Shown in pieces: positions 18,369 to 36,734 of a DNA stretch of 64,000 bases. A model generated the notes under the pieces. That model did no database searches, was not told where the DNA came from, and was given only the letters and a program-made list of their open reading frames with translations. The stretch is from Chaetoceros tenuissimus (taxonomy: Eukaryota > Bacillariophyta > Thalassiosirophyceae > Chaetocerotales > Chaetocerotaceae). The stretch covers positions 4,340,001-4,404,000 of the forward strand of contig BLLK01000047.1 in assembly GCA_021927905.1 (NCBI GenBank). Direction: 5' to 3'. Numbering within the stretch: position 1 is the first letter of the stretch; each line of letters starts with the position of its first letter. Both the position numbers and the translations under genes were made by a program.

Positions 18369-19202
18369 TTATACATTGGCAAAGAAATTCAGAGATGATC
18401 CTTCCTCCTCATCGAAATCAAAACAATCTCCAATATCAAAGCAGTCTAGATCACTCATGAACGTATCATGTCCTTGTTCACTTATGCCAACAGTTGGCAT
18501 TGTTTGCTGAATCTTGACTTTATCTTCCTCAATACTTTGAAAAGCTGGCAAAGTGAATTTCCTCACCTGACCATAGAATTGGTACTCTTTTTGCATGCTA
18601 TCGTCTTCAGTAGCGATAGAAGATCTAGTAGAGTCTATGAAAGAAACAGCATCATCATTTGATGTACTTGCAGCACTTACAGCACATGAAGTATTTGTCT
18701 TGATCGTTGTAACTTGTTTCGTCGTTTTTGAAGATCCAGAACGAGCAATTGTATGGCATAGGCTTGGATTCTCTTTGAGGAATAGAGGATGACCATAGAC
18801 GCCACAGTCAGCAGCACATCTTTTACCAATCTTCTTGAAACCCCACAAGTTCAATTGGCGACGGAACGAGGAGTAACTCTTTTGGTTAAAGAAGCCACGT
18901 TGCTTGACTAGCTTCTCGAATAGCTTCTTATCATGGATACGGAACGTAGTTCCATTAGGTTGCCACGATATGATATGAGCGAGTTCAGGTTCTTTTGTGT
19001 CAATCAATTGCAAGATGTGCATAAGCTTGACAGGAAAAGATTCCTTGCCATCACTGTTTGTGTTGTTCTGAAGCTCAATCTTAGGAGTCTCTTGCGTGGT
19101 AGCTTTCTCTATTTCCATAGAGTTGTCAGTTACAGTCACAGCCCTTTGACGAGGTTGCAGTTCGGGGTAAGGATATGATTTAGGGCCAGCAAAAGTACTC
19201 AT
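18369..19202 (-). CDS. heat-shock-factor-type transcription factor, cluster member 1
   Basis: Single exon, 277 aa. The HSF DNA-binding domain is at about 56-152: FPVKLMHILQLIDTKEPELA, HIISWQPNGTTFRIHDKKLF, then SYSSFRRQLNLWGFKKIG, in which the recognition helix has Trp where most eukaryotes have Tyr. It ends with CGVYGHPLFLKENPSL, which replaces the usual wing. No HR-A/B coiled coil is evident; the C-terminus is acidic with FDIGDCFDFDEEEG, a possible activation segment. It is the outermost of four tandem HSF genes, all on the minus strand. The DNA-binding segment shares an identical stretch of roughly 80 bases with the next copy, including synonymous sites. A TTCnnGAA site lies 126 bases upstream. 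Confidence 0.92.
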   Translation of the reverse strand: MSTFAGPKSYPYPELQPRQRAVTVTDNSMEIEKATTQETPKIELQNNTNSDGKESFPVKLMHILQLIDTKEPELAHIISWQPNGTTFRIHDKKLFEKLVKQRGFFNQKSYSSFRRQLNLWGFKKIGKRCAADCGVYGHPLFLKENPSLCHTIARSGSSKTTKQVTTIKTNTSCAVSAASTSNDDAVSFIDSTRSSIATEDDSMQKEYQFYGQVRKFTLPAFQSIEEDKVKIQQTMPTVGISEQGHDTFMSDLDCFDIGDCFDFDEEEGSSLNFFANV

Positions 19203-20076
19203 GATGTTCTAGTTGTTCCTTTCAGTATTTATGAGAGATGCAAAAATGCGGAATTACTTTTTATGAGTCCACAAATGTCGATGATGCAGACCACAGATGC
19301 ACTGACATAGAAAGTTTCTCCAATGGATTCGAGAACCACCCGGTTCTCTGATCATTTAGGACAAATGTATCCCTTCCTTTAAACATATTTCGGAGTCGAG
19401 TCGAAGCGAATGAAATGTCATTATTCTGTTTCTTCAGAAAGATAGAAAAATATTCGGTATGAAAATGTCTATGAGAATACAATTCTATTACTGTGAGTGG
19501 GATTGCAAGATCTTCGTTCTTTTCTGAAGAGTTGACAGGGAAACAATAAAATTGATAAAACATATAGTTGTGAATCTCTTAGGGAAAAGGTCAGATGTCA
19601 AGGTGTTCATATAGGCTTAACCTGTTTTGTTCTATGTATTTGTGCAGGCTTGATAAAGCTTTTAAAAAGAAGTCGAACGTTTGAGTTCCTATGTAGGTAT
19701 TCCGCTCATGTGTCGCTTACGTGTCACTTAAAAGTCTCTAGAAAGAGATGATCCGAGCAGGGAGACAAATTTGATTTCGGACAATCATGTTTTAGAGGAA
19801 GAAACGCGGAAAAATTTGGATGTTCCTCATTTGGGTTCTGATGTGGTTGTAACGTTTTGTCAACTTTTCTGATAATGATTCATTCATCTTTTAAATTGAC
19901 ATCCCGTTTTGGTTCCCTTCTTTATGGAAATCAGGGAGGGAACCCTTGCATCGACCGACTAATAGGTGTGAGAACTGAGAACGAAGAAAACCGATGATCG
20001 CTTACTAAGCATAGAAAAAATATGTTTGCACTTTATTACTGAAGGGTAATTTTAAAAACTTTGCTATGTAATTTTT
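19203..20076. other. intergenic between HSF copies 1 and 2
   Basis: Promoter flank of copy 1. The open frame on the minus strand at 19261-19563 has no family match and overlaps the promoter, so it is not called. Shares GAACCACCC-GTTCTC with the upstream region of copy 2 near 20900. Confidence 0.4.
19328..19348. promoter_or_regulatory. candidate heat-shock element plus short inverted repeat
   Basis: TTCGAGAA (19328-19335) fits the nTTCnnGAAn core recognised by HSF proteins and overlaps an inverted repeat GAGAACC-ACCC-GGTTCTC (19331-19348). It lies 126 bases upstream of the HSF start at 19202. Autoregulation is inference. Confidence 0.4.
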
Positions 20077-20787
20077 TCATGAACTTTCTAGTGCTTCTAA
20101 TAATAATACACCATATTTGGATGGCAATGGAATAAACTTTTCATCGAGTTGCATAGGTTCTATCATTGGATTCTTTCGAATGTTATTGTAATAAAAGTAT
20201 TTCCTCTCCTCACCTCGCCTTTGATGATCGACTGTGTCAATAGATTTTGTAGATTCTGTGACTGCTCTCAAAGAATCTTGGAAATAGAACGATGATGTAG
20301 AAGCATCCTCAACTTCTGAAGAGATTATGTCATCATCGAATTCAGTGCTTTGTTTACTCTTGAAAAGCTCACAGTGCTTTCTATTCATTGCTGCTGATAG
20401 ACGAGGATTATCTCTAAGAAACATTGGATGTCCATATACACCGCAGTGTTCAGCACATCTCTTGCCAATCTTCTTGAAACCCCACAAGTTCAATTGGCGA
20501 CGGAACGAGGAGTAACTCTTTTGGTTAAAGAAGCCACGTTGCTTGACTAGCTTCTCGAAAAGCTTCTTATCATGAATACGGAACATAGTTCCATTGGGTT
20601 GCCATGATATGATATGAGCGAGTTCAGGTTCTTTTGTATCGATTAATTGCAAGATGTGCATAAGTTTCACCGGGAAAGATTCCTGATTCCTACTAGCAGC
20701 AGGAGACCTCTTCTTCTTGGCAAAATGTTCTGGTGAAGCCATCATGTGATCGTGTTTATTGGAGAAAGATGATCTAAAACTATTCAT
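20077..20787 (-). CDS. heat-shock-factor-type transcription factor, cluster member 2
   Basis: Single exon, 236 aa when started at MNSF (20787). The two copies further on begin with the same MNSF residues, so the longer upstream frame starting at 20982 is taken as non-coding. The DNA-binding domain has FPVKLMHILQLIDTKEPELA, IISWQPNGTMFRIHDKKLF and SFRRQLNLWGFKKIG followed by CGVYGHPMFLRDNPRLSAA. It is shorter than its neighbours because the acidic C-terminal region is reduced, ending with PMQLDEKFIPLPSKYG and LLLEALE. The motif (P)LQLDE-(I/L)-PLPS near the C-terminus is shared with copies 3 and 4 and may be a functional peptide. The N-terminus before the domain is Lys-rich (KKKRSPA), a possible nuclear signal. 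Confidence 0.9.
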   Translation of the reverse strand: MNSFRSSFSNKHDHMMASPEHFAKKKRSPAASRNQESFPVKLMHILQLIDTKEPELAHIISWQPNGTMFRIHDKKLFEKLVKQRGFFNQKSYSSFRRQLNLWGFKKIGKRCAEHCGVYGHPMFLRDNPRLSAAMNRKHCELFKSKQSTEFDDDIISSEVEDASTSSFYFQDSLRAVTESTKSIDTVDHQRRGEERKYFYYNNIRKNPMIEPMQLDEKFIPLPSKYGVLLLEALESS

Positions 20788-21316
20788 TGTCTCAATGTGC
20801 GAAGTGCTGATGTATGTAAGAACAAAATTATGTTGAAAAGATAATATTATGAAATCATGCAAAATACATAGAGAGAAAGCTGTTGTTCCAAAGTGGTCAT
20901 TACTGAACCACCCGTTCTCATAGGCCAGGTAGCGAACAGATTGTGCTTGGTACATTCTTAGCCTTCTCACACGACTTCCCACAATAATTTAGCTATCATT
21001 CCAAGGACGATTAGACTGTATTAGACGGAAGAGATAGGAATATATGTTAGCCTTCTCTTTGAAAGAATGATTTTAATAGGAAGGCGTGAATCAATAACAA
21101 GCATACTGTAGTCTATTCAATTTTCATAAATAAACCAGCACTTTGTTGTTTATCATTTCTTCTTTTGGAATCATTGTCATTTCTTTAAGATATCCTGAAA
21201 GCAAGCGATAGCGCTAAAAGCTTTTTGATAATCTGAATACTTCAAACCATTCTTACATAAATAATGCATATACTGTGAATAAAAAATAGATTGTTATAAA
21301 TATATGAAACAATTGA
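20788..21316. other. intergenic between HSF copies 2 and 3
   Basis: Upstream flank of copy 2. No gene, repeat or RNA recognised. The open frame continuing upstream of 20787 lacks an equivalent in the paralogues. Confidence 0.4.
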
Positions 21317-22292
21317 CTAATTCTCTAGAGCCTCACGAAGATACTTCCCAAAGTTAATATTCGAAGGCAAAGGCGAAATTTCCTCATCAAGCTGAAGTGG
21401 TTCTATCTCACAATACGCATCCTCTTCTATATCTTCTACTACATGATGACTTTGAAAGAAATCTGAACTAGAAAAACTTGATTGAGTAGGTTTTGGTCTA
21501 TACTCTTCGTAACTATCTTCGAAATCGAAGCATTCAAGCTCTTCAAGCATGGTATCTTTTTCATAGCTCTGAGTAGGCTCATAGTAAGTGCTACTACAAA
21601 CTTCTTCCTCGAATGGTGGTTTGAATGAATAAGTTTCTCTAGGTCTTCTCAAGTTACCATAGAAGTGGTATTCTTCTTGCTTTGAAGATGCCTGATTGTC
21701 TGTACTGATAGATAAAGTCGACTCTGTTACAGCAGTAATATCAAACTTATCATAAGTAGAAGGAGTTACAGTACTTGAATGAGTCGAAGAAGAATTGAGG
21801 ATCTTTGAGGCATTCTCTTGTTCCATCAAAGCCTTGATTTCATTGTCTAGTAACTTTGAAGAGCCTCCGCAGCGAGAAATTGCATTGCACAGTCGAGGAC
21901 TTTCGCGTAGAAACATTGGATGTCCATAGACGCCACAGCTTTCCTTGCTACGCTTACCAATCTTCTTGAAACCCCACAAGTTCAGTTGGCGACGGAAAGA
22001 AGAATAGCTCTTTTGATTGAAGAAGCCACGTTGCTTGACTAGCTTCTCAAAGAGCTTCTTATCATGAATGCGGAGTTCCATGAGGTTGCCATGATATGAT
22101 ATGAGCGAGTTCAGGTTCGTTTGTATCAATCAATTGCAAGATGTGCATAAGTTTCACCGGGAAGGCCTCTTTGTTTGAATATTGAGCTCCTGAGATTTGG
22201 CTACTAGCATGGATTGGTGGTCTCTCTGTAGAGGCTTTTTGCTTCGTATTAGACTCGTGTCTCTGGAAGAAAGGGGCCGTGAAAGAATTCAT
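21317..22292 (-). pseudogene. HSF cluster member 3, frameshifted in the DNA-binding domain
   Basis: Begins MNSFTAPFFQRHES at 22292 and runs in frame through FPVKLMHILQLIDTNEPELA and IISWQPHGT. There the paralogues read GGAACTACGTTCCG, but this copy reads GGAACTCCG, five bases fewer, near 22073. The frame shifts at that point. The second frame resumes with RIHDKKLFEKLVKQRGFFNQ and runs open to 21317, ending with PLQLDEEISPLPS like its neighbours. No GT-AG intron explains the gap. Everything else is intact, so loss is recent, polymorphic or an assembly error. The DNA of the recognition-helix region also differs more from copies 1, 2 and 4 than these do from each other. Confidence 0.8.
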
Positions 22293-23290
22293 TTTTAATA
22301 GGGTGTCAAATCTTTAGAATGAAAATTATGTTCTCTGTCTATGTGGTGATACTTAAAGGTGAAGTGATGTGCAGGCCAATACTTTTCGGGCTTCGCCTTC
22401 CGGAAGGCTTTGTCATATTTTTGTCACTGATGTGAATTATTTCCCGCTTCTCACCTTTCTTTTGTCATCTTTGCGATTTGTTTTCTTTCATCTACAGGAA
22501 TTCTTCCGGAACTTGACAATTCTAAAAGATCTGAGGAAAATCTGACAGAATAAAACAGACTACGCTTCGGAAGAAGCTCATTGATTATTTATAAGTGATA
22601 AATAATTCCAGATCATATTCATCAGTTACTCAGTACCATAATTATTTCATCCTTATCAACTTTTTCCTTCTTTGCTTTCTTTCATGTTTAAAGTGTGGTA
22701 TATAGGTATGTCTTGCTTAATAAATCTGACAACAATTCGCAATCTTGTGTAAATTCCCTCCTTCACTTTCTTCTTCCGACTTTTACATTCCGGCTTCCTC
22801 CTGGAAGAATTGTATGGCCTTCCAGATCGCGAGTAGTACTACCTACCGTACTGTACCTATTTCTTTCAAGAAAACCTTTTTTGCAAAGAGTGTTTTCTAT
22901 TTCTCTTGTTCTATACCAGAAGTCCTCAATAAGTTCTGGTTTACTGAAATCCGAACAGGATGTGCCTCTGCTAAGGATATATATGATTATGGAATGTGGT
23001 AATCAAACGAGATCTTACATGAAAACGAGATGCAATGAGCAGTAGCCGGTCAGAACGAAGAAGATGACTGAGCATTATACGAGTATTAGTGGTATCGAAG
23101 AGCTCGGATCATGATTGTGATCCAATGTATATTTTTATTTGTACTATTATGCTTTTCAATCACATGCAGATGTAAAGGTTTTATTTCTTTTAATTTACAG
23201 GAATAAAACTCTATAGATTCTTTTGTGTGATTATGTGAAGCAAACATGAAATAGTATATGCATCTATCACAATATTTTATATAACTTATA
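22293..23290. other. intergenic, duplicated HSF upstream block
   Basis: Upstream region of HSF copy 3. It is related to 24215-24930 upstream of copy 4: both have GATGCAGGCC, TGTCAT-TTTTTGTCA, and a pyrimidine-rich block with TTGYGTAAATT and TTCCGACTTTT-C-TTCCGGC (about 22742-22800 and 24628-24680). The duplicated unit therefore includes about 500 bases of upstream sequence. No gene is called. Confidence 0.5.
22395..22511. promoter_or_regulatory. two TTCCGGAA heat-shock-element-like sites
   Basis: GCCTTCCGGAAGGC (22395-22408) is a perfect 14-base palindrome containing TTCCGGAA, and CTTCCGGAAC recurs at 22503-22512. Both fit nTTCnnGAAn. They lie about 105 and 210 bases upstream of the frameshifted HSF copy. 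Confidence 0.4.
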
Positions 23291-24214
23291 TTAATTCCCT
23301 AAAGCATCACTTAAATACTTCCCACAATGCGAAGGTAAAGGTGTAAGTTCTTCATCAAGCTGAAGAGGTTCAATCTCACAAAAAGCATCCTCGTCAAACT
23401 CTTCTGCCATCTGTGTATTGAAAAGATCGAAGCTGGAATTGTGACTCGATTGCATAGGAGAGTCGAAGCATTCAAGCTCTTGAAGCATACAAGCATCATT
23501 TTCATCATTATGGCACGTGGTAGAGTTGTAGTAAGCGCTACTACAAACTTCTTCTTCTTCCCGTGGTTTGAATGAATAAGTTTCTCTAGGTCTTCTCAAG
23601 TTACCATAGAACTGATACTCTTCTTGCTTTAAAGATGCCTGATTATCTGTACTTATAGACATAGTGGACTCGGTAACAGCAGTAACATCAAAATTGCTTT
23701 CATAAGCAGAAGGAGTTACAGTACTTGAATGAATTGACGAATTGATGATCTTTGAGGCATTCTCTTGTTCCATCAAAGCCTTGACTTCCTTATCCAACTT
23801 TGAAGAGCTTCCACAACGACTAATTGCACTACAGAGACGTGGATTCTCACGAAGGAAAAGAGGATGACCATAGACGCCGCAACTCTCCTTGCTACGCTTG
23901 CCGATCTTCTTGAAACCCCACAAGTTTAGTTGGCGACGGAACGAGGAGTAACTCTTTTGGTTAAAGAAGCCACGTTGCTTGACTAGCTTCTCGAATAGAT
24001 TCTTATCGTGGATACGGAAAGTAGTTCCATTAGTTTGCCATGATATGATATGGGCAAGTTCAGGTTCTTTTGCATCGATTAGTTGCAAGATTTGCATAAG
24101 CTTCACAGGGAAAGAAGCCTCTTGTTGAACTCCTGAATTGAGGCTACTTGAGGGTATCTCTGGATATTTGTCAGATTCATGTCTTTCGAAGAAGGAGGCC
24201 GTGAAAGAATTCAT
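23291..24214 (-). CDS. heat-shock-factor-type transcription factor, cluster member 4
   Basis: Single exon, 307 aa, started at MNSF (24214) by agreement with copies 2 and 3. The DNA-binding domain begins near residue 35 (FPVKLMQILQLIDAKEPELA), with IISWQTNGTTFRIHDKNLF, SYSSFRRQLNLWGFKKIG and CGVYGHPLFLRENPRLCSA. The region after it is conserved with copy 3: ALMEQENASKI, TAVTESTMSISTDNQAS, EEYQFYGNLRRPRETYSF and the C-terminal EIEPLQLDEELTPLPS. No classical HR-A/B zipper is visible; the C-terminal half is acidic and Ser-rich. This is the intact sister of the frameshifted copy 3. Likely nuclear, binding TTC/GAA repeats. Confidence 0.92.
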   Translation of the reverse strand: MNSFTASFFERHESDKYPEIPSSSLNSGVQQEASFPVKLMQILQLIDAKEPELAHIISWQTNGTTFRIHDKNLFEKLVKQRGFFNQKSYSSFRRQLNLWGFKKIGKRSKESCGVYGHPLFLRENPRLCSAISRCGSSSKLDKEVKALMEQENASKIINSSIHSSTVTPSAYESNFDVTAVTESTMSISTDNQASLKQEEYQFYGNLRRPRETYSFKPREEEEVCSSAYYNSTTCHNDENDACMLQELECFDSPMQSSHNSSFDLFNTQMAEEFDEDAFCEIEPLQLDEELTPLPSHCGKYLSDALGN

Positions 24215-25033
24215 TTTTATATTTCGGTTTCTTTGAGAGTAAAAAAATTTATGGCATCTTCTTTGTTGACGTGAGATGCAGGCCCTCATTCACGTTTTAT
24301 CCAGGCTGTCATGTTTTTGTCAATTCGTTCTGATTTTTCCTGCTTTCTTTCGGATAGGTTTTTGTTTAGACATTCGATATCCAAGTTTCTCCGGTAGTTT
24401 CTGAGGAAAGAATATATGGATACAAAATCGGAAGAAAGAACATCCCCATTATTGATACAATCTGAATAAAGAAGATCGAAACTCATCCATACTCTTTACA
24501 ATCCTCCTCATGATCTATAAATGTTTGTTATATCAGAAACAGTTCCTATTCTCTTACTTCTATTTTTCATCTTGTATGGCCATGGCCTAATTTGTAGCTC
24601 TTACTTTACTTTGACACGAGCGGAACATCTTGCGTAAATTGTCACCTTCTCTTCCTTCCGACTTTTCCCTTCCGGCTTCCTTCCGATTTTCCCATTCCCA
24701 CTTCTCTATTCATTCCAAATGTTAAGCTTTCCTTACGACATTGTAATGATATACTTCCGTTTCTCCGTAAATTGACTTCAGTAATTCCTATTTTAATTCT
24801 GAGTTTGAAAAACAAAGTCTCTGTAGGCCTGACCAAATTCTGTTTTGTATTGGTTAATCCGAAAAAGAGCGAGGGGTATAGCAGTGCCTTGCGAATGCGA
24901 TCGAAGACGAGATGTAAGTAAGCTAGATACACAATAATTACAGCAGCTGACTTTTAACCATTTCTGTCACCATTCTGCATGTATCTTAACAACTGCTATT
25001 AAGAATAAATCATTACTTATTCAAATTATCTGT
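24215..25033. other. intergenic, upstream block of HSF copy 4
   Basis: Upstream sequence related to that of copy 3 (see 22293-23290). The rest is AT-rich with a pyrimidine-rich tract at 24648-24715. No supported gene. Confidence 0.45.
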
Positions 25034-26401
25034 CTATACATCTTGACTCTCACTTACGACAAGATTTTGAGTTTCTTCATCTGTTTCTTCTGGCCAAACA
25101 TTTTCCTCATTAATTTCAATCTCTTCCTGGGAGTTCGTCTCTACAGTACTCATGTTGTCTTCTTCCATCTCTAGACCTTGTAAAATGATATCGGCATCAT
25201 TATTCATTGCAATATAAGTTGCATCAGTTTCCCCTACTTCATTGTCGCTCAATAGAGGCTGATGTGACTCAGTTTGGTCATAACCGTGCTCCTGGTCTTG
25301 CAGTCTTCTCTTGAGTTTACGATTGGAACGATACATGAATATCAAAGCAATCCCCATCAAACTCCAAATAAACATGAACAACAAGGGCTGAGCAAAGTCG
25401 ACAGTCGTTGCATCATCAGGCACTGGATTCATATGTTCGCCACTACCACTGCTACTAGCATCATATAGCTCCGCTGCAGAAGGAACGCAAGGTAGCCCTT
25501 CTACACAAGCATGTACCAAATTCAACATTTGTTTCGGTTCCTTGGAATCAAAATTCATATCAAAACTCCACCCTCTATTCGGATCATCGCCGTAACAATA
25601 TGGTCCACTAATATGAAAACCAAGATCAGCACGATTGACACGATCCTTAATCTTTGGATATATACCATACATGTAATCTTTTTTACGAGGCATAGTCATG
25701 AGTTTATAATCCAATTTCACTTCAATCATTTCTTCCCCTTGATCATTATCTACAAAATTGAATTCAAATAGGGGCAAGAGAGGTTCCACATTTCCATGTT
25801 CACATGTATGTTCATATTTTTGATAAGGATCAGTGTCATCTCTTGTATATTGACTATGCTGTGTATTATTCACAGCAGTTGCTCCTGCCATATTATCAAA
25901 GTCTTTTTCATTAATAAGTGTAGAATTGTCAGGCATGCGAAGATATGGTGTCAAAGGTGTATTGACATATCGAGTGAGGTATCGATCGAGTATAGGTCCT
26001 TGTATATGTGGAGTATCCTGCGCAAGAATAATATTGAGAGGACCGATCCAAGATCCGGTGTCTTCCGCTCGATGTTTATTGAATGGAAAGCCGACATCAA
26101 TTTTGGCACCGAAATACATGAATGCTGATAAATCACTCCAAGTGCTGACATCATCTGATCCTGTTTCACTGAGATTCATGCAAATCTTGTTTTCCTTGAC
26201 TTGAGAATGTCTCGAGAGTTGACAAATTTTATTTTCATATTCGTTGCAATCTTCTAGTGTACATTGATTATTCCGACTAGGATCGGGCATGAAGTGGATC
26301 ACGAAATATGCCATGAGTTCGTAGTCACCTATGGAGGTCTTGAGATGGGTTGTTCCAGTCCACGTCCCTAGTAGACTGGCTATGCGAGTAGAGTTTTTCA
26401 T
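25034..26401 (-). CDS. single-span membrane protein, family not recognised
   Basis: Single open frame of 455 aa from an ATG at 26401. Residues about 1-340 are a polar domain with several Cys pairs (for example NNQCTLEDCNEYENKICQ, FHISGPYCYG, HACVEGLPC) and N-glycosylation sequons (NST, NNT), so it probably folds in the ER or outside the cell. One hydrophobic helix follows (FAQPLLFMFIWSLMGIALIF), then a basic stop-transfer MYRSNRKLKRR and an acidic 85-residue cytoplasmic tail. No cleavable signal is seen at the N-terminus. The frame is open upstream of the ATG back to a TGA, with a possible splice acceptor, so a short first exon carrying a signal may be missing. I do not recognise the family and give no function. 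Confidence 0.7.
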   Translation of the reverse strand: MKNSTRIASLLGTWTGTTHLKTSIGDYELMAYFVIHFMPDPSRNNQCTLEDCNEYENKICQLSRHSQVKENKICMNLSETGSDDVSTWSDLSAFMYFGAKIDVGFPFNKHRAEDTGSWIGPLNIILAQDTPHIQGPILDRYLTRYVNTPLTPYLRMPDNSTLINEKDFDNMAGATAVNNTQHSQYTRDDTDPYQKYEHTCEHGNVEPLLPLFEFNFVDNDQGEEMIEVKLDYKLMTMPRKKDYMYGIYPKIKDRVNRADLGFHISGPYCYGDDPNRGWSFDMNFDSKEPKQMLNLVHACVEGLPCVPSAAELYDASSSGSGEHMNPVPDDATTVDFAQPLLFMFIWSLMGIALIFMYRSNRKLKRRLQDQEHGYDQTESHQPLLSDNEVGETDATYIAMNNDADIILQGLEMEEDNMSTVETNSQEEIEINEENVWPEETDEETQNLVVSESQDV

Positions 26402-26732
26402 GGCAAAATACAGTAGTTCTAATGGAGATATGAATAGCAGAGGAGTTCAACCTATATATTTATTTTGTTAGATGCTACCTGTTCTGTGCTCTACCGCTGA
26501 TGACGAGTAACGCTTCTGCTTTTCGTTCTCACACAATGATGACACAACTCTCATTATTCCGAAGAATTTAGTCATAGCGCGCGAAATAAAAAAGTCGACG
26601 TGTTTCTCACAATTCCAGACCTTCCTTTCATAATCTCCGCACCTTCCTTTCAATATTGTACACGGAAAAGGTTCGCTATTTATGTGATTCATATAAAAGG
26701 TTATGAAAAGTCATTCAGGTTCTAGAGAAAGC
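26402..26732 (+). promoter_or_regulatory. B-type promoter block of the paired family
   Basis: Contains the block shared by B-type genes: TTAGTCATAGCGCGCGAAAT at 26569-26588, then TTCTCACA and CCAGACCTTCCTTTCA, then AAAAGGTTCGCTATTTATG at 26667-26685 just before the start. TTTCGCGCGC on the other strand fits the E2F consensus TTTSSCGC. Related blocks lie at 28200-28320, 29440-29600 and 31990-32150. Confidence 0.5.
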
Positions 26733-27209
26733 ATGTCGGATACTACCCTACAAGTGATTCATATTCCATTCAAAACGGATCTTAATGGACGTTCGTGGAT
26801 AGATCGTAATGAAGAGTACTTATCAGCTATTCCAAATATTACAAAAGAAGAATGGATGAATTTCTACGATCGAATAGATTACAGTCTGAATCAAGATGCA
26901 CAGCCAAAGTTTGAAAAGACAATCAGCGAAGAGAATAAAGAAGGATGTGCAAGTTGTTTAGCTTGTATCTTTCTTGTATTCATGTGTTTTCTAGGTGGTG
27001 GGTGTGATCCTAGCTGCGGCGGCGGTAGTGGAACTCCTGCAGAGATTAATCAACCTATGAATATAAAAGCTTGTATGAAAGAGTTAGACAGCGAGAGTAA
27101 GAGGAGAGAGACCTTATTGTTTCAACTAGTTATCGATGGAACAATAGAGGGCGGGGGATATGTTTTATATGTCAAATGTACATTAAAAAAGGAGAATACC
27201 ACAGTATAA
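26733..27209 (+). CDS. B-type small Cys-rich membrane protein
   Basis: 158 aa; start MSDTTLQV chosen because the B-type gene at 32188 begins MSDTNLQV. Domain order: an N-terminal domain with HIPFKTDLNGRSWIDR and KEEWMNFYDRIDYSLNQD; a charged linker; one hydrophobic span rich in Cys (CASCLACIFLVFMCFLGGGC); a Gly/Cys loop; then INQPMNIKACMKELDSESKR, LLFQLVIDGTIEGGGY and a terminal VKCTL. The same order is found in all members between 26.7 and 33 kb. There is no signal peptide, so the N-domain is probably cytosolic and the single helix is an internal anchor; Cys residues at the helix edge could be acylated. The family is unknown to me. It converges with the A-type gene at 27358. Confidence 0.8.
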   Translation: MSDTTLQVIHIPFKTDLNGRSWIDRNEEYLSAIPNITKEEWMNFYDRIDYSLNQDAQPKFEKTISEENKEGCASCLACIFLVFMCFLGGGCDPSCGGGSGTPAEINQPMNIKACMKELDSESKRRETLLFQLVIDGTIEGGGYVLYVKCTLKKENTTV

Positions 27210-27357
27210 AAAAGACAAAGAGAGCGCTGAGGAAGAGATCAAATGACTGAACCCCGAGTACAATGTTCTCATTGACTTTTAAATTGAATCAATTGAGAGT
27301 AGATTTCTTAATGGGAATTAATTTATAAAGTTATGATCTTTTCGAAAACTTCAAATT

Positions 27358-27873
27358 TTAAACATCATCATTGAAATTCTCCACAACTTTAACACTATCC
27401 ATGATAGTGCACTTTATATGTTGAATGTATCCACCACCGATAATTGTACCATCAATCACCAACTGTAACAAAACGTTGCTCTTTTTCTTGCTCTCTTTAT
27501 CGAGTACATTCATACATGCTCTAATCTGGGCAGGTTGGACTACATGCTTATCTGCTCTGCCTGCATTATCGCCAGCAACGCATAATACCAAGCAGCAGCC
27601 AATTCCTGAACACATTAATGAGGTCCACATGAGACAAGTGCACAACCTTTTCAATGCATCTTTCCTATTTTCTTTCTTTGTCGCCCTCTTGAGTTCTGGC
27701 TCTTCATGCGGATTCAAAGAAAAATCTACATTATCGCAGAATTTTTTCCATTCCTCTTGCGTGAAAAGTTTTTGGATATGTGGATTGCTGATTTTGCTAC
27801 GGTCAATCCAGCTGCTTCCGTTTTTATCAGTTCTGAATAGGATCTTGAGAACAACAGGCTTTTCTTCGAACAT
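27358..27873 (-). CDS. A-type small Cys-rich membrane protein
   Basis: 171 aa from MFEEKPVVLKIL (27873); the other A-type genes begin M(V/F)(F)EEKP-VLKI at the same place, which decides the start over the upstream ATG. N-domain: FRTDKNGSSWIDRSK, then EEWKKFCDNVDFSLN. A Cys-rich span follows (LCTCLMWTSLMCSGIGCCLV), then VVQPAQIRACMNVLDKESKK and LLQLVIDGTIIGGGY, ending IKCTIMDSVKVVEN. It differs from B-type proteins mainly in the first 15 residues and in FCDNVD against FYDRID. Its promoter (about 27945-28100) is copied upstream of the A-type genes at 29043 and 30666. Confidence 0.8.
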   Translation of the reverse strand: MFEEKPVVLKILFRTDKNGSSWIDRSKISNPHIQKLFTQEEWKKFCDNVDFSLNPHEEPELKRATKKENRKDALKRLCTCLMWTSLMCSGIGCCLVLCVAGDNAGRADKHVVQPAQIRACMNVLDKESKKKSNVLLQLVIDGTIIGGGYIQHIKCTIMDSVKVVENFNDDV

Positions 27874-28506
27874 ATTGAAGTTGTTTCTCTGAACAGTTTT
27901 ATTTCTTAGATATAAAAAAATGGGAAGCAAGGGCTCTACATTTTTGCTCGTGAAGGTCCTTACGTTTTGTTCGTGAAGAGCTTTTATTTCCAGAGACCTT
28001 GTTTCCTATTCTTCATACAGTTTCATTCATCCAACGGCTTTTCTCTCTTTGCAAAATTTGAGCGCACATGGCTAAGAATGTCATTTTTCAAAATTTCATC
28101 AAAAATTGGCAAACATAAAAGCACTGCTGATGACTCGAACCTTGAACTAAGTTGAAAAGTGCTTGCTTCACACTCCATTTCCTCCTTGCTTTCTCAATTA
28201 TACTTTGCTCTAGAATTTTGTCATAGCGCGCCATATGAAGAAGCTTCTTTTTGCTTTATTTCGTTTTCACATTAAGGTTCGCTATTTCTAAAGCCATTCC
28301 ATTTATAAAAATTCAAGTATACTACATACTAAACTAAAAACAATTAATATTCCAAAGTAAATGAATCTCAACACTGTAAATGCAATGCTACGAAAAGAAT
28401 AGGACGAGAAAGACATTGCTAAGATGAAAGGAAAGCCCAATGACAATGTACTTTGAAATTAAACTGTTATTGATAAAATTCCAATCACTTTCTCGTATAT
28501 CCACAC
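27874..28506. promoter_or_regulatory. A-type promoter and an orphan B-type promoter
   Basis: 27945-28100 holds the A-type block (GTGAAGGTCCTTACGTTTTG, GAGCTTTTATTTCCAGAGA, CTTGTTTCCTATTCTTCATA and AAGAATGTCATTTTTC) also found at 29135-29280. 28200-28320 holds a B-type block on the plus strand (GTCATAGCGCGCC, TTTATTTCG, AAGGTTCGCTATTT), but no B-type gene follows: 28321-28506 has no recognisable coding remnant. The B partner of this pair appears to have been lost. Confidence 0.55.
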
Positions 28507-29043
28507 TTACAGCACATCATCAATAAACTTATCCTCTTTGATGGTGCACTTTATATGTTGCACGTATGCACCGCTCTCAGCATCACGGCTAGCTGCAATC
28601 GTTCCTGAAGTCTTCTCCATCTGAAGCAAAATGTTGCCCTTTTTCTTGCTTTCTTCATTTAGTAGTTTCATGCATGCTTTCATCTGAACAGGTTGGATAA
28701 TTGTATTATCTCCTCCTGAATGTTCGGTAGCAGCGCATAAAGCAAGACACCCCATTACACAAAATCCTATTCCGCATGAAAGAATTAGGAAAGCCCAGTA
28801 GAGACACATGCATGTGATCCCTGGACTTGACTCTTCCCACTCGCCTATTTCTTCTACAGGCTCAGTCTCTTCAACTAGATTCAACGAAGAATCTACATTA
28901 TCGCAGAATTCCTTCCATTCATGATCCGCATAATATTTCTGCAGGTATGGGTTGCTTGATCTTTTGGTGCGGTCAATCCATCTGTATCCTTTCGAACTAC
29001 AGCCTAATAGGATCTTGAGAACAACAGGCTTTTCTTCGACCAT
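28507..29043 (-). CDS. A-type small Cys-rich membrane protein
   Basis: 178 aa, starting MVEEKPVVLKILLGC. Family blocks in order: SSKGYRWIDRTKRSSNPYLQ, HEWKEFCDNVDSSLN, an acidic linker (EETEPVEEIGEWEE), a long Cys-rich span (CMCLYWAFLILSCGIGFCVM), IIQPVQMKACMKLLNEESKK and AYVQHIKCTIKED. The C-terminal domain has a longer insert (MEKTSGTIAASRDAESG) where other members have IDGT--GGGY. It faces the B-type relic at 29601 head to head. Confidence 0.8.
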   Translation of the reverse strand: MVEEKPVVLKILLGCSSKGYRWIDRTKRSSNPYLQKYYADHEWKEFCDNVDSSLNLVEETEPVEEIGEWEESSPGITCMCLYWAFLILSCGIGFCVMGCLALCAATEHSGGDNTIIQPVQMKACMKLLNEESKKKGNILLQMEKTSGTIAASRDAESGAYVQHIKCTIKEDKFIDDVL

Positions 29044-29600
29044 GTTGGTTGAAGTAGTTTTCGTTAGAGTCTTTTATAGATTTATGAAGAAATGAAACAT
29101 AAGGCGAACTATCTTTTCTCTATTAATATCTTTTTGATCGTGAAGGTTCTTACGTTTTGTTCGTGAAGAGCTTTTATTTCCAGAGAGCTTGTTTCCTATT
29201 CTTCATACTGTTTTTGTTCATCCATGGTTTTCTATTGCAAAATTCGCGCGCACATTGGCAAGAATGTCATTTTTCTGAGGGGATTTGTATTCGTATTGAG
29301 CATTTTCGAAAATGTTAATCATCATCCAATTGTACTAGTATTGACTCAAAACCCATCAAATTTCGAGATCAGCTTTTCAAAATTGCATACTTCTTATTTT
29401 CCTTGCTTTCTTGTTTGTTATTTGCTTGGTTTGTTCCTCTTTTCACACTCCTCATACAATGACGAATGGGTACATAACGCTTCTGCTTTTCGGCGCGCGA
29501 AATAAAAGGCCTCTTTTTGGAACTGTTTTCCTCACATTTTCAGACCTTCGTCTTTCATTCGAAAAGGATCGTTTATGAAAAGCTACTCAAATACAACATC
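29044..29600. promoter_or_regulatory. divergent promoter of pair 2
   Basis: 29135-29280 carries the A-type block, and 29440-29600 the B-type block (CTTTTCGGCGCGCGAAATAA, CTCACATTTTCAGACCTTCG, AAAAGGATCGTTTATGAAAA). GCGCGC occurs in both halves (near 29246 and 29493). Confidence 0.5.
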
Positions 29601-30039
29601 ATGCAAGATAATTAATTAATTAAAGTTGTTTATATTCCATTAAATACGGATCTTAATAACGTTCGTGGATAGATCGAAATGAAGATTACCAAGTATCAGC
29701 TATTCCAAGAAAGAAGAATGAAATTGATTATAGTCAAGATGCACAACCAAAGTTTGAAATGACAAGCAGCGAAGAGAATAAAGAAGGATGTGCAAGTTGT
29801 TTAACATATATCTTTCTTGTATTCATGTGTTTTCTTGGTGGATGTGATCCTACTAGGTGCGGCGGTAATTTTAGATCCATTAACCTATGAATATAAAAGC
29901 TTGTATGAAAGTATTAGACAGCGAGAGTAATAGGAGAAAAGATGTATTTTTCCAACTGGTTATCGATGAAAAAATTGAGGGTGGAGGATATGTTTTGTAT
30001 ATCAAATGTACTATAAATAAAAACACGATTGATAGATAA
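29601..30039 (+). pseudogene. decayed B-type gene
   Basis: DNA similarity to the B-type gene at 26733 runs from its ATG to its stop: GGATCTTAATAACGTTCGTG matches the NGRSWIDR region, and GAAGGATGTGCAAGTTGTTT, TCTTGTATTCATGTGTTTTC, AAAAGCTTGTATGAAAG and GGTGGAGGATATGTTTTGTA match the later blocks. There is an early stop in the first codons, and small deletions shorten the N-domain. The C-terminal half is still open for about 50 codons. It is a recently dead copy. Confidence 0.8.
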
Positions 30040-30120
30040 AAGAGAAGGAAGATGATTATGTAAGATTGGTATGAGTAATTCACTAATTGAAATAGAGTTA
30101 TATAATAATCTTCAAAAATA

Positions 30121-30666
30121 TCACACCGATGCAATGCTATGTAAATGATCTTTAATGGTGCACTTTATATATGTCGGATATGCACCGCTCTCAGCATCAC
30201 CGCTTGCAACTAATTCAAGCAAAATGTTGCCTTTCTTCTCGCTTTCTTTTTTCAACATGTTTATGCATGCTCTAACTTGAGGAGGTTGGACGACATTATT
30301 ATTTGCCCCACCATACTTTTCAGTAGCATTACAACACGCCCGTGCTAACAACACACAACAACCAACGCATGTAAGAAATAAGCCAGTCCAATAAAGACAC
30401 TTCCCTATTCTGCTACATATCCCTTGAGAAGAGTATGCTGTTTCCGTCCTTATAAAATCAGGTTCGTTATCCACAATCTCAGGTTCTTCTTTTTCTGGAT
30501 TCAATGAAGAATCTACATTATCACAGAATTCCTTCCATTCCTGCTCTGTATAACATTTCTGGAGCAGTTGATTTCTAGATCTTTTACTACGGTCAATCCA
30601 TCTGTATCCCTTTTTGTCGGCACCAAAATGGATCTTGAGAACTATAGGTTTTTCCTCAAAGAACAT
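30121..30666 (-). CDS. A-type small Cys-rich membrane protein
   Basis: 181 aa from MFFEEKPIVLKIHFG (30666); the longer upstream frame is promoter. Blocks: DKKGYRWIDRSKRSRNQLLQ, EQEWKEFCDNVDSSLN, a linker with EIVDNEPDF, a Cys-rich span (CLYWTGLFLTCVGCCVLL), VVQPPQVRACINMLKKESEK and LLELVASGDAESGAY with a terminal IKCTIKDH. It faces the B-type gene at 32188; the mobile element at 31001-31989 lies between the two. Confidence 0.8.
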   Translation of the reverse strand: MFFEEKPIVLKIHFGADKKGYRWIDRSKRSRNQLLQKCYTEQEWKEFCDNVDSSLNPEKEEPEIVDNEPDFIRTETAYSSQGICSRIGKCLYWTGLFLTCVGCCVLLARACCNATEKYGGANNNVVQPPQVRACINMLKKESEKKGNILLELVASGDAESGAYPTYIKCTIKDHLHSIASV

Positions 30667-31000
30667 GATGCTATTGTGTAGCAAATAGTTTTTATAGATT
30701 TCTGAAGAAATGCAACGAATGAATCTCTGCTCTGCAATTTTATTTGTTCGTGAAGTGCTTTTTATTTCTAGTAGCACTTGATTTAATTCCTTCATACACA
30801 GTTTTGCTTATCCAACGGATTTCGCGCGCAATGACTAAAAAGTCATTTTTCAAGAAAGATTTGTGTTGATTTGAAACGTCGATAATATTGATCATCATCC
30901 AACGTACCTTACTATTACTCAAACTTTAACTTGTTAAGTAATAAGTAGCTTTTCCACACTTCTTCTTTGGCAATTTGCTGTTCGTTGTTCTCACATTCAG
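30667..31000 (-). promoter_or_regulatory. A-type promoter of pair 3
   Basis: Carries TTTGTTCGTGAAGTGCTTTT, TTCCTTCATACACAGTTTTG and ATTTCGCGCGCAATGACTAA (about 30740-30850), the A-type block seen upstream of the other A genes. Its far end (TTGTTCTCACATTCAG) joins, across the mobile element, to B-type promoter sequence. Confidence 0.5.
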
Positions 31001-31989
31001 TATCCCTTAGTTCGCAGCCCGACTATAGCCGGGTTTACTCCAATGTTTCGGTGCACCATAAATCTTGAAAAAACACTAAACTAGACTAAAACAAGTACAT
31101 CAATGTCTTGTATACACCAATTTTCATAATACCATCTTGAAACGAGTTCAATAGTACGTATACTTCTTGAGATACAGCCTTGAGCAATCTGAACCACGAA
31201 AATCCGTTGAGCAGTCGGGTTAACGAACTTTTTTCAAATGTGAAACTGTCTCCATTATATCTTCTGCAATTCACATCCAAATTGCATCAAATTTAAAACA
31301 CAAGAAGAAAACATACAACAGCAACTTATGGAAATACCGTGGAGTTCAAAGGTGGTTTGGAATATGTAAAATACATGATGACACAACAATCAACTTTTGT
31401 ACAGTCCCGTACCCATCGCTTGACCATGCCAAAATGAGAGGTGCAATATCTTATTCAAAACCGACCTGATTTTCAAATCCATTGTCACCCACAAAAAATA
31501 TACACTTGAGATTTATGTTAAGGCTTTAGATCTAGCAATACTGGTCGTTTTGATTGTTTTATGGCAAAAAAGGGGTAGGGGGATCTGTTTTGGATCATTC
31601 AGCATGTTCATGAATGTAGGAATGAAGAATAATGGTCAAAAACGAACAACAAACACAATGGACATCTACTTTAATATATAAATGATGATATCCTCAAATA
31701 TTACTTTGTAGATATTCATATTCATCAAGAAATACAAAGTACAAGTAATTCACTTGAAATGTGACTTTTGAGGATATTTTTGAAAATAGGGTCATTGTAA
31801 CGTTTTCATATTTCATGAAGAAAATGAAATTGGAACATCATATTCAAAGTTTACAATCTTTACATATCATATAATAATATTCTAATGAGAAATATAGAAA
31901 GTATATGATTTTTACTATGGAGACGGCAACCTAACAATTTTTGGTGCCCAACCCGACTATCCGTGTGCCCCCATGCCAACTAAGGGATA
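31001..31989. mobile_element. non-autonomous TIR DNA transposon with TA flanks
   Basis: Left end TATCCCTTAGTTCGCA (31001-31016) and right end TGCCAACTAAGGGATA (31974-31989) are inverted repeats with one mismatch in 16. Inside the ends, both sides carry CCCGACTAT and a GGTGC or GGGCACC motif in mirrored order, so the inverted repeat continues with gaps. If the outer TA is the target duplication, the element is 31003-31987. It encodes no recognisable transposase; the sequence between is AT-rich without long open frames. Removing it joins TTCTCACATTCAG to GCAATGGGATGACCGAATTT, which parallels the uninterrupted promoter near 26525-26590. TA targets suggest the Tc1/mariner superfamily, but the ends alone do not prove it. 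Confidence 0.6.
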
Positions 31990-32187
31990 GCAATGGGATG
32001 ACCGAATTTAGTCATAACCGTGAAATAAAAGGCCTCATTTTGGGCCGATGTCTCCTCACATTTTCAACCACAACCTTCCTTTCAACAAAACACAGCACGA
32101 CAACTTCAACTTCCTTTCATTCCACTAGGTTCGCTGTGTAATTCATTTTTGACTTTATGAAAAGTCAACGCAGATAAGAAGGAGGGC
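31990..32187 (+). promoter_or_regulatory. B-type promoter remnant next to the mobile element
   Basis: GAATTTAGTCATAACCGTGA and AATAAAAGGCCTCATTTTGG correspond to the block at 26565-26590 and 29490-29515, but the GCGCGC core is replaced by ACCGTG. TCACATTTTCAACCACAACC and TAGGTTCGCTGTGTAATTCA follow in the usual order. Confidence 0.5.
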
Positions 32188-32682
32188 ATGTCAGATACTA
32201 ATCTACAAGTGCTTCATATTCCATTCAAATCGGATCTTAATGGACGTTCATGGATCCATCGTGATGACGAAGTCATTTCAGCTATCCCAAATATCACAAA
32301 AGAAGAATTGATAGATTTTTACGATAGTATAGATTACAGTCTGAATCAAGATGCACAGCCAAAGTTTGAAAAGACAATCAATGAAAAAAATGAAGAAGGA
32401 TATGGAAGTTTTTCAGATTGTATCTTTCTTGTATTCAAGTGTTTTCTCGGTGATGGATATGATCCTACTAGCCGCGGTCGCGGTAGTGGTGTAACTCCCG
32501 CAGGAGAGACTAACCAACCTTCGAATATCAAAGCTTGTAAAAAAGTATTAGACAGCGAGAGTGAGAGGAGAGAAGATATTCTTTTTCAGTTAGTAGTCAG
32601 TAGAGGAGGAGGATATGCTTTGTTTGTCAAATGTACAATAATGCCAGAGGAAGAAGAGGAGGAAGAAAGTATCAAAGCATAA
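32188..32682 (+). CDS. B-type small protein with degraded membrane span
   Basis: 164 aa, starting MSDTNLQVLHIPFKSDLNGR. N-domain blocks SWIHRDDE, KEELIDFYDSIDYSLNQD and QPKFEKTINEKNEEG match the copy at 26733. In the membrane segment the Cys residues and hydrophobicity are partly lost: CASCLACIFLVFMCFLGGGC in the sister becomes YGSFSDCIFLVFKCFLGDGY, with Lys and Asp inside the span. The C-domain keeps NQPSNIKACKKVLDSESERR and GGGYALFVKCTI, with IDGTIEG deleted. The tail is Glu-rich. The frame is intact, but the protein may no longer be membrane-bound. Confidence 0.75.
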   Translation: MSDTNLQVLHIPFKSDLNGRSWIHRDDEVISAIPNITKEELIDFYDSIDYSLNQDAQPKFEKTINEKNEEGYGSFSDCIFLVFKCFLGDGYDPTSRGRGSGVTPAGETNQPSNIKACKKVLDSESERREDILFQLVVSRGGGYALFVKCTIMPEEEEEEESIKA

Positions 32683-33358
32683 GTAATCATTTAGACAAAT
32701 CACAGACATTCAAATTTATTTTTTAAAAATACAAAGGAATCTAGACTTGCATACATACTTCGCACTTATTTCTTGATGGTAAAGTAAGAGAAAGGCAATA
32801 TGCTAGTACTTCGTTTGACTATCGAAGGCTCAGCAAGCTACTCAACCAAATGCTATCAAAGCTTGTGTAAAAGTTTTAGATGAAGAAAGTAAGAGAAAGG
32901 CAATATGCTAGTTATGTATGAAGTAGAGACGAAGAGCTTCCAAAGAATTTTTATCCTAAAAAGAACCTTAAATGAACATCATACTTACTATCTACTTCTG
33001 GTATCCTACTGAACTGAGTACTGCGCATTCAATACCAAAGGAATAATCAAGGTCAAATGTATTATTTATGCTTTATGAAGACTGACTTGACAATGAAAAT
33101 GTAAATGCTCTGTCATTGTTACATTCACATACGCAATCAATTCCTATGCAAAAAATGATGGCAAAGATGGGACTTGTCTGTCTGTCATCCAAGTATCAAA
33201 CTTCCCCTTCAAGGTTGGGAAGTATTCGATCCGCACAGACAGACAGACGTTGTGAGTGTATCTTCTCATTCTTCTGTCTCGCCATTTTTCTTTCATTGCT
33301 CGCAATTGAACACCATAGACGAAGCTTCTATTGAACCTAAATAGAAATAGAAACAGAA
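32683..33358. other. intergenic with a family relic, upstream of the reductase
   Basis: Holds the C-terminal relic at 32825-33076 and a direct repeat AGTAAGAGAAAGGCAATATG at about 32785 and 32890. From 33100 on it is the promoter of the reductase gene. Confidence 0.45.
32825..33076 (+). pseudogene. C-terminal relic of the small Cys-rich family
   Basis: ACTCAACCAAATGCTATCAA followed by AGCTTGTGTAAAAGTTTTAG reads TQPNAIKACVKVLDEESKRK, the conserved C-domain block of the family. Near the end, GGTCAAATGTATTATT reads VKCII, like the terminal (I/V)KCT(I/L). The upstream half of the gene and the segment between these blocks are missing or scrambled. Confidence 0.6.
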
Positions 33359-35435: not shown

Positions 35436-36734
35436 ATGAAGTTCTCAATAATCTCAATTCTAGCGGCTCTGCTTTCCATTTCATCTTCTGTTGCAACTGA
35501 AACTGAAACTCAACAAGAAGTCATTCTCGAAAATGAAATTGAATCTACAAATGAATCAATCTGCAACTCTACAAACAGAGAATGCCATTCATCCATTCCA
35601 TTTCCAGTCATGCCACAAAAAATCAAAGCCATGTTATTGGACAATCACAATCTTCTCGATCCTCAAGGAGAAGAAATGCTATCAAAATTACAACAAATGG
35701 AAGCGACTGCTGCATTCGCTCATGCCAGATCAACCTTTTTTGAGCATTTAAAAGGTACTTTTCAAATTCTATCTGCTTGGAATCAACCTACGAATATCAA
35801 AAGAGCGGGAATGATTCATACCGGTTATTCCGGTGATTTATTTCAATTCTTTTTATTTGACTCTAATAAAGAACAGGACAGAGAATCACTCAGATCTCTC
35901 ATTGGAAAAGAGGCGGAGGAGTTGGTTTACTATTTTGGAACCATTCACAGAGGAGATTTATGTCAATTCTCTCAAGCTGTTGGTAGACAAGTGGCTTTTC
36001 CTAAATGTGATGTTGAAAATATTACAGTGGCACATCGTGGACTAAATGAGGTGGAGGTCTCACCGCAACTAGCCGCTCAAATTCTAATGGTGACCATTGC
36101 AGATTATTTAGATCAAATGGTGGATACCAATGGATGGAGAGATCATCATCAACATGAGGAAGGTGGGAATAAGCTTTATCCGGGCAATGGAAGACCGGCT
36201 CTTGGGTTTTATTGGTTCTCATCTGTGTGTAAAGCTATTAAACCCTTTTTGGAGGTTGTACCAAGTGTCTTTGATAGTTGTGAGACTGTCATTACTGTGG
36301 AGAATGAGGAAATTGCCAGAGATGCCTATTGGAAAGTCACCATGGATGAAGCGGATTTGGAAATTGATACACAGATTGAATTGCTTCAACAGACTGTTGA
36401 GTTGAATCCATTTGTAGGGGAGCCGCATTTACTTTTGAGTCAAATACATTATCGTCAAGGACAATACTATGATGCAGCGATTCAAGCACAAGCTGCACTC
36501 AAAAAGTTTTATACTTTGGCGAGTTGTTGGGATAAACGTAGAAGTTTTGCGCATTGGGTGGGATATGCTAGAATCATGCTTTTGAGATCTAATCGAAAAA
36601 TGGAAGGACTTGATTCTAGTTGGCCAGTTGTCGATCCAGAGGATGAGAAATATGTCAATTACAATGATTTGAAATTGACCAATTTGCATCATTTTGTACA
36701 GGAAATGAAGGAGAGAGAAGTTGAGGGAGTTTAG
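35436..36734 (+). CDS. secreted DUF6817-like protein with TPR-like C-terminus
   Basis: Single exon, 432 aa from MKFSIISILAALLSISSSVA, a clear signal peptide; the upstream in-frame sequence is not needed. After a Glu/Thr-rich linker, residues about 95-215 resemble DUF6817: FFEHLKGTFQILSAWNQP, AGMIHTGYSGDLFQFFLF, IGKEAEELVYYFGTIHRGD. This His-containing helical domain is common in algae and bacteria, and no activity is known to me. The region at about 340-400 (LEIDTQIELLQQTVELNPFV, PHLLLSQIHYRQGQYYDAAI, QAQAALKKF) has the spacing of two TPR repeats. Two Cys pairs (ESICNSTNREC, FDSCETV with VCK) fit an oxidising compartment. Role unknown. Confidence 0.75.
   Translation: MKFSIISILAALLSISSSVATETETQQEVILENEIESTNESICNSTNRECHSSIPFPVMPQKIKAMLLDNHNLLDPQGEEMLSKLQQMEATAAFAHARSTFFEHLKGTFQILSAWNQPTNIKRAGMIHTGYSGDLFQFFLFDSNKEQDRESLRSLIGKEAEELVYYFGTIHRGDLCQFSQAVGRQVAFPKCDVENITVAHRGLNEVEVSPQLAAQILMVTIADYLDQMVDTNGWRDHHQHEEGGNKLYPGNGRPALGFYWFSSVCKAIKPFLEVVPSVFDSCETVITVENEEIARDAYWKVTMDEADLEIDTQIELLQQTVELNPFVGEPHLLLSQIHYRQGQYYDAAIQAQAALKKFYTLASCWDKRRSFAHWVGYARIMLLRSNRKMEGLDSSWPVVDPEDEKYVNYNDLKLTNLHHFVQEMKEREVEGV

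Follow-up and report, generated by a model that had tools for sequence, protein, structure and literature searches.

Our question was why the genes of one small protein family should stand in a row of head-to-head pairs, and what was copied to produce that row. The locus lies in a 64,000-nucleotide stretch of the diatom Chaetoceros tenuissimus (contig BLLK01000047.1), which we call the window and whose positions are used throughout. An earlier note on this DNA had described five intact genes and two relics of one family, the A-type members all on the minus strand and the B-type members all on the plus strand, and had taken a divergent A/B pair as the unit of repeated duplication. When the open reading frames (ORFs) and their translations were checked, the five intact ORFs and the two relics were found at the positions given, between 26733 and 32902, and the strand rule holds for every one of them. 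Comparisons with the genome were made against the organism's own assembly of 41,027,912 bases in 68 contigs, of which contig C34 is the source of the window. The unit of duplication was very probably the divergent A|B pair, because the middle of its spacer aligns between copies and because pair 1 still keeps an orphan B promoter.

The unit of duplication

Alternating strands could arise from the copying of divergent A|B blocks or of convergent B-A blocks, and the spacers between the genes can be used to tell these apart. The three divergent spacers are collinear from end to end, with z scores of 24.0 for pairs 1 and 2, 10.1 for pairs 1 and 3 and 20.9 for pairs 2 and 3, and with 0 of 300 shuffles reaching the score in each case; for spacer 3 this holds once a 985-base repeat is set aside. 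The middle part of spacers 2 and 3 aligns even when taken alone (z 8.4, 0/300 shuffles). The convergent spacers, in contrast, are not collinear (z 1.4, 1.1 and 0.5, with the score reached by 24, 52 and 95 of 300 shuffles). Coding and promoter DNA were thus copied together, as had been proposed. It had also been proposed that one pair lost its B gene, and this too is borne out: pairs 2 and 3 each hold one A and one B (B2 being a relic), and pair 1 has only the B promoter. The remnant of that promoter matches the upstream region of B1 (0/500 shuffles); taken alone, it gives no match to the upstream regions of B2 or B3 (57 and 60 of 500 shuffles reach the score). The region upstream of B1 is itself similar to spacer 2 (z 5.8) and spacer 3 (z 8.5), only marginally so in its distal part (z 2.5, 5/300), and B1 could have lost an A neighbour or have been without one from the start.

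The trees separate the two subfamilies. Both a protein tree of the five intact members and a DNA tree of those five with the B2 relic added give the split between A and B 100% ultrafast bootstrap support, so that A and B form two clades and in no pair are A and B each other's closest relatives. A2 and A3 are sisters (99% in the protein tree, 100% in the DNA tree), and B2 and B3 are sisters in the DNA tree with 45% support. The branching of the A and B sides is compatible with the copying of whole pairs, with weak support on the B side.

Two points weigh against the divergent pair as the unit. If whole pairs were copied, the sisterhood of A2 and A3 predicts that of B2 and B3, yet the support for the latter is only the 45% given above. 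Moreover, promoters under constraint would give better alignments than 3' spacers for any copied block, which leaves the case for this phase of the unit strong and short of proof. As a separate observation, the promoter blocks of A1 and A2 (27941-28089 and 29131-29275) have identities of 95% (83 bases) and 88% (41 bases), and the coding regions are 66% identical; either constraint or gene conversion could have made the promoters more alike than the genes.

Table 1. Features of the A/B cluster, in window coordinates
Feature	Position	Strand	Remarks
Element upstream of B1	26567..26587	+	TTTAGTCATAGCGCGCGAAAT; GCGCGC starts 156 bases before ATG
B1	26733..27209	+	Intact, 158 amino acids; without pair partner, left edge of cluster
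A1	27358..27873	-	Intact, 171 amino acids
Divergent region, pair 1	27874..28340 (as compared)		A1 promoter and B promoter remnant
B promoter remnant, pair 1	28212-28243		No B gene detected behind it
A2	28507..29043	-	Intact, 178 amino acids
Divergent region, pair 2	29044..29600		557 bases; GCGCGC at 29246 (A side) and 29493 (B side)
B2 relic	29601..30039	+	Reading frame broken; DNA identity to B1 83% over 430 aligned bases
A3	30121..30666	-	Intact, 181 amino acids
Divergent region, pair 3	30667..32187		529 bases as compared, 31003-31994 left out
Element upstream of A3	30819..30839	-	TTTAGTCATTGCGCGCGAAAT; GCGCGC at 30824, 158 bases from ATG
Inserted repeat, pair 3 spacer	31003..31987		985 bases
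B3	32188..32682	+	Intact, 164 amino acids; four Cys; central hydrophobic stretch weak
B4 relic	32825..32902	+	Only the stretch around QPNAIKACVKVLDEESKRKAI remains

The B4 relic has a protein match with an E-value (E) of 0.535 and 54% identity over 26 residues, and its DNA is 79% identical to B3 over 42 bases. An exact 27-base repeat stands at 32781-32807 and 32886-32912, beside this relic and overlapping its end.

The repeat that splits the control region of pair 3 has the ends TCCCTTAGTT and AACTAAGGGA and is flanked on both sides by TA; together with seven adjoining bases it makes up the 992 bases left out of the spacer comparison. The genome holds at least five long copies, that of the window included, and at least five partial ones. 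The four other long copies are 89-95% identical to it and the partial copies 80-81%. Both ends and the TA are present in copies L035 and L036, copy L034 is without the left end, and in copy L037 the left end is a variant next to TA and the right end is missing. The TA flanks suggest that the repeat may be of a Tc1/mariner-like kind.

An element shared by A and B promoters

Some 150-160 bases before A3, and again before B1, stands a 21-base element, TTTAGTCATNGCGCGCGAAAT, for which the 41 Mb of the genome give no further exact match. The two copies are identical at 20 of 21 positions and have the same orientation to the gene (0/300 shuffles), and local alignment of the two upstream arms gives nothing beyond the element. 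Measured from the near edge of GCGCGC, the distance to the ATG is 158 bases for A3 and 151 for B1. Its chance expectation in the window is 0.00, the pattern having been derived from this cluster and being present here by construction. The weight of the element comes instead from the likeness of an A and a B promoter and from the lack of other exact copies in the genome. With up to three mismatches allowed, the genome has four matches, which are the two exact ones, the remnant of the lost B in pair 1 (three mismatches) and one on contig C38 (three mismatches). A1, A2, B2 and B3 have the element in altered or partial form. Its presence before both A3 and B1 suggests common control, and co-control of A and B is plausible from these sequence comparisons.

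Several findings count against common control. The exact element stands before one of the three A genes and at one of the four B positions (B1, the lost B, B2 and B3). When the A arms were compared with the B arms, only A3-B1 among 12 upstream comparisons beat all 300 shuffles; in four others the score was reached by 19, 23, 28 and 39 of 300 shuffles, and in the remaining seven by 71-214. The C38 match lies within a 705-codon ORF, and a reversed control pattern also matches once with three mismatches. The idea that the A-arm and B-arm upstream regions are as a whole an inverted duplicate is rejected, with the 21-base element alone standing out.

Shorter motifs were also counted. GCGCGC occurs at six places in the window, five of them in upstream regions of the cluster (26577, 28226, 29246, 29493 and 30824). 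Two sequences are common to the A promoters, where TTCGTGAAG has all three of its occurrences in the window and GAAAAATGAC three of its five. GCGCGCGAAAT has eight sites in the genome, three of them at this cluster, compared with three for the reversed control pattern, and the ORFs beside the five other sites have no common theme by eye. GCGCGCGAAAT has a likeness to an E2F site, and a reading as such was not supported: TTTCGCGC is found in none of seven 5-kb stretches upstream of MCM loci, each of which may or may not include the promoter. The looser TTTSSCGC is found three times, in two of the seven stretches, and locus L049 has a TTTCGCGC behind its MCM match. The seven loci come from a set of 12, of which L046 was dropped as a near-copy and four as additional exon pieces of genes represented by other loci. 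Two of the MCM matches (G000:C48:2231970 and 2245144) have equal scores and lie 13 kb apart, which may be a recent duplication or an effect of the assembly.

What the pairing may mean

We think it fairly probable that the cluster is a chorion-type array with shared control, in which A and B are two forms of one membrane-attached adaptor kept as a mixed pool. Two ancient paralogues would have stood back to back, sharing some 530-560 bases of control region, and at least two rounds of tandem copying of the A-promoter-B block would have given the alternating strands. Later, pair 1 would have lost its B gene, B2 would have decayed and the repeat with TA flanks would have entered the control region of pair 3, with further B copies (B1 and B4) left at the edges of the cluster. 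One factor could bind the 21-base element and turn on A and B together. The products may then be used together, as a mixed pool and not as obligate one-to-one partners.

The earlier note regarded this arrangement as undescribed, which does not stand, as the silkmoth chorion A/B genes share the design (PMC4639761). The chorion genes form two branches of one superfamily, mostly in tight pairs that are transcribed divergently from a common promoter region. The likeness is closest to the HcA/HcB genes of Bombyx mori, which comprise 21 strictly head-to-head pairs and HcB pseudogenes without a partner, with promoter identity over 90% and identities of 48-72% in the 300-base 3' flanks of five pairs (PMC4639761). 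Both arrays have tandem head-to-head pairs, promoters with higher conservation than the 3' flanks, B copies that are dead or lack a partner, and products rich in cysteine. The chorion genes differ in that they encode secreted eggshell proteins and are listed as 8+15+21 pairs, compared with three pair positions in the diatom. No signal peptide is evident in the diatom proteins (by eye only, no prediction having been computed), and no sequence relation is claimed; a Pfam scan, without direct comparison, gave no chorion match at E<=10 for any of the five members.

The cluster belongs with tandem arrays of divergent paralogue pairs on two counts, namely its two paralogous clades and the copying of the block together with the intergenic region. 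Bidirectional head-to-head pairs are usually made up of unrelated genes. The diatom pairs resemble such pairs (e.g. PMC7817982) in having starts less than 1 kb apart, opposite strands and a control region in between, and differ from them in being paralogues whose block is repeated. A diatom precedent for the A/B family was not found in the literature at the level of titles and abstracts, mostly without subscription papers. The arrangement is familiar as a type of genome organisation; the protein family has no assignment, and the element shared by an A and a B promoter is a new observation. The locus gives a readable example from a unicellular alga of a paralogue pair amplified together with the promoter between its genes, and its copies, standing next to one another, include intact, decayed and emptied ones and one split by a repeat. 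Since an A and a B promoter have an element in common, co-regulation can be tested directly.

The gene counts bear on how closely the products could depend on each other. Three intact A genes stand beside two intact B genes, with B1 unpaired, which shows that a strict one-to-one ratio is not maintained. To the right of B1 there are four B positions, of which only one still has an intact gene, two have relics and the fourth has none, so that an A gene does not depend on a B of its own. The surplus of A genes beside lost B genes likewise argues against a strict one-to-one need.

The same counts are what the strongest alternative would lead one to expect. A and B could be independent paralogues, and their pairing a functionally meaningless by-product of an early inverted duplication followed by tandem copying. 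B1 is unpaired, A genes are in surplus, B2 and B4 have decayed and the B of pair 1 is lost, and A3-B1 stands alone in its 0/300 result among the 12 arm comparisons. However, this alternative does not account well for an almost identical element that an A and a B promoter carry in the same orientation at nearly equal distances from the ATG. We consider it less probable than the array with shared control, and yet a serious competitor.

The protein family and its surroundings

The five intact proteins have 31 invariant columns. Identity over aligned codons is 49-58% among the A members, 71% between B1 and B3 and 29-40% between A and B. The motifs that had been read from the sequence are partly upheld: QP-x-x-(I/M/V)-(K/R)-AC and (I/V)KCT are present in all five, and WIDR and EW-x-x-F-(C/Y)-D in four, with B3 having WIHR in place of the former and EL in place of EW. 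Protein searches of the own genome with B1 (E<=0.001, the query including upstream in-frame residues), A2 and B3 (both E<=10) found the family at this locus only, the counts being lower bounds. The single match elsewhere, on contig C54, is at chance level (E 3.9).

Searches of wider collections left the family without an assignment. Pfam has no significant match in the five intact members; EAD6, found in A3 alone (E 0.0088, 16.7 bits compared with a cut-off of 27), was judged to be chance. NCBIfam gave no match, PHROGs no significant one (two rows at E 0.09, one member each), and the PDB sequences none either, with a best E of 1.2 for a single protein and 0.19 for a profile. A five-member profile picked out 85 pattern stretches in viral_contigs and 59 in genome_contigs, none of them confirmed, in collections from which records near the own genome may be excluded; the only eukaryote genome covered was the organism's own. 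Foldseek returned nothing at E<=0.001 among 73 matches for A2 and 179 for B1 against the PDB and 509 for B1 against a viral library; the models are weak, so this is no sign of a new fold. The family could hold an unseen fold.

Each member had been credited with one Cys-rich membrane span. Hydropathy agrees for A1-A3 and perhaps B1, with 19-residue Kyte-Doolittle maxima of 1.98-2.41, and B3 has no convincing span, its central stretch reaching 1.54 over 15 residues. AlphaFold2 models were made from the five family sequences with either A2 or B1 first, and have a mean predicted local distance difference test score (pLDDT) of 63.3 and a predicted template modelling score (pTM) of 0.54 for A2, and 64.7 and 0.57 for B1. 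In both models two strands and helices come first, followed by a middle of low confidence and then by one helix and two strands. Block means at the ends are mostly 65-91, with a dip in A2 to 42-58 around residues 141-160. Because the first strand has nine residues and its neighbour only three, we infer that the partner of the first strand is a C-terminal one and that the two ends belong to a single domain. In that case the Cys-rich middle would be a dip or an anchor instead of a plain span between domains on opposite sides. The predicted layout, in which a beta-beta-alpha part is followed by the Cys-rich hydrophobic insert and then by alpha-beta-beta, would put the ends together in one domain on the cytosolic side, with the insert dipping into the membrane or lipid-anchored there, and A and B could be two forms of a small adaptor attached in this way. 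What weighs against a membrane role is that its evidence consists of hydropathy and weak models, in which the pLDDT of the middle is under 50.

A bolder version of these ideas would be a lineage-restricted family with an unprecedented membrane-dipping alpha/beta fold, whose A and B products form a mixed membrane complex balanced by common bidirectional promoters with the 21-base element, which no other gene of the genome was seen to have upstream. We regard this as unlikely; if it were true, a chorion-like genetic design would have evolved independently for an intracellular membrane protein.

More doubtful still is the idea of a distant membership in, or an analogy with, the Erf4/GOLGA7 (GCP16) family (PF10256), whose proteins are accessory subunits that stabilise DHHC palmitoyltransferases; A and B would then serve different DHHC enzymes. 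The size is similar, the middle is Cys-rich, hydrophobic and possibly membrane-dipping, and the beta-beta-alpha-insert-alpha-beta-beta order appears in both models. The likeness in order depends in part on an Erf4 layout that is presumed. The genome has 27 DHHC-domain matches, 24 of them above the cut-off, counted exon by exon. A description of GOLGA7 (PMC12528901) has it insert two short amphipathic helices in the membrane and carry acylated cysteines. Kinship finds no support, however, from Pfam, from profile comparison with shuffles or from own-genome searches. The Pfam Erf4 model matches none of the five members at E<=10, with human GOLGA7 as positive control at 1.2e-36. The profile comparison with GOLGA7 gives a probability of 0.15%, with a local score of 11.6 that is exceeded by at least 10 of 60 shuffles and a global score of 4.3 exceeded by seven of 60. 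An RDYS motif was not seen by eye, no GOLGA7 chain is among the best 50 of 73 (A2) or the best 50 of 179 (B1) Foldseek matches, and the own-genome searches, for which there was no positive control, were without a match. Erf4/GOLGA7 may serve as a lead on how such a protein might work and not as a family to which it belongs. Separately, the genome has an array of nine DHHC palmitoyltransferase domain matches on one strand over about 35 kb (G000:C27:2182097-2217410).

The intact genes have, by the measure of coding constraint, been kept as proteins, because the ratio of nonsynonymous to synonymous change (dN/dS; Nei-Gojobori, NG86) between copies is well under 1. It is 0.32 for B1-B3 (bootstrap 95% range 0.20-0.52), 0.32 for A2-A3 (0.19-0.53), 0.55 for A1-A2 and 0.28 for A1-A3, the last with a dS of 1.56 that is close to saturation; the six A-B pairs have no usable dS. 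That this is an orphan locus in decay, or a group of ORFs that have no function as proteins, would fit the lack of a significant family match, the two relics and the one lost gene, and is highly improbable given five copies with open frames of 158-181 codons, values near 0.3 in B1-B3, A2-A3 and A1-A3, where in each case none of 300 bootstraps was 1 or higher, and only 1 of 300 even in A1-A2.

The G+C content of the window is 34.8-43.2% in 2-kb steps. The contig ends (3 kb each side) have a single TTAGGG and no array, and a subtelomeric position of the cluster is not claimed. To the left of the cluster, a gene for a 455-residue protein (25034-26401) is arranged head to head with B1, 331 bases away; it has no Pfam match at E<=0.01 and no second genome copy at E<=0.001, and a hydrophobic stretch can be seen by eye towards its C-terminal part. 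Further left are four tandem genes for HSF-type transcription factors (PF00447) on the minus strand (18369-24289), one of them with a DNA-binding domain that is shortened as called from the first ATG. On the right, at 35436-36734, lies a gene with a DUF6817 domain (E 6.6e-21).

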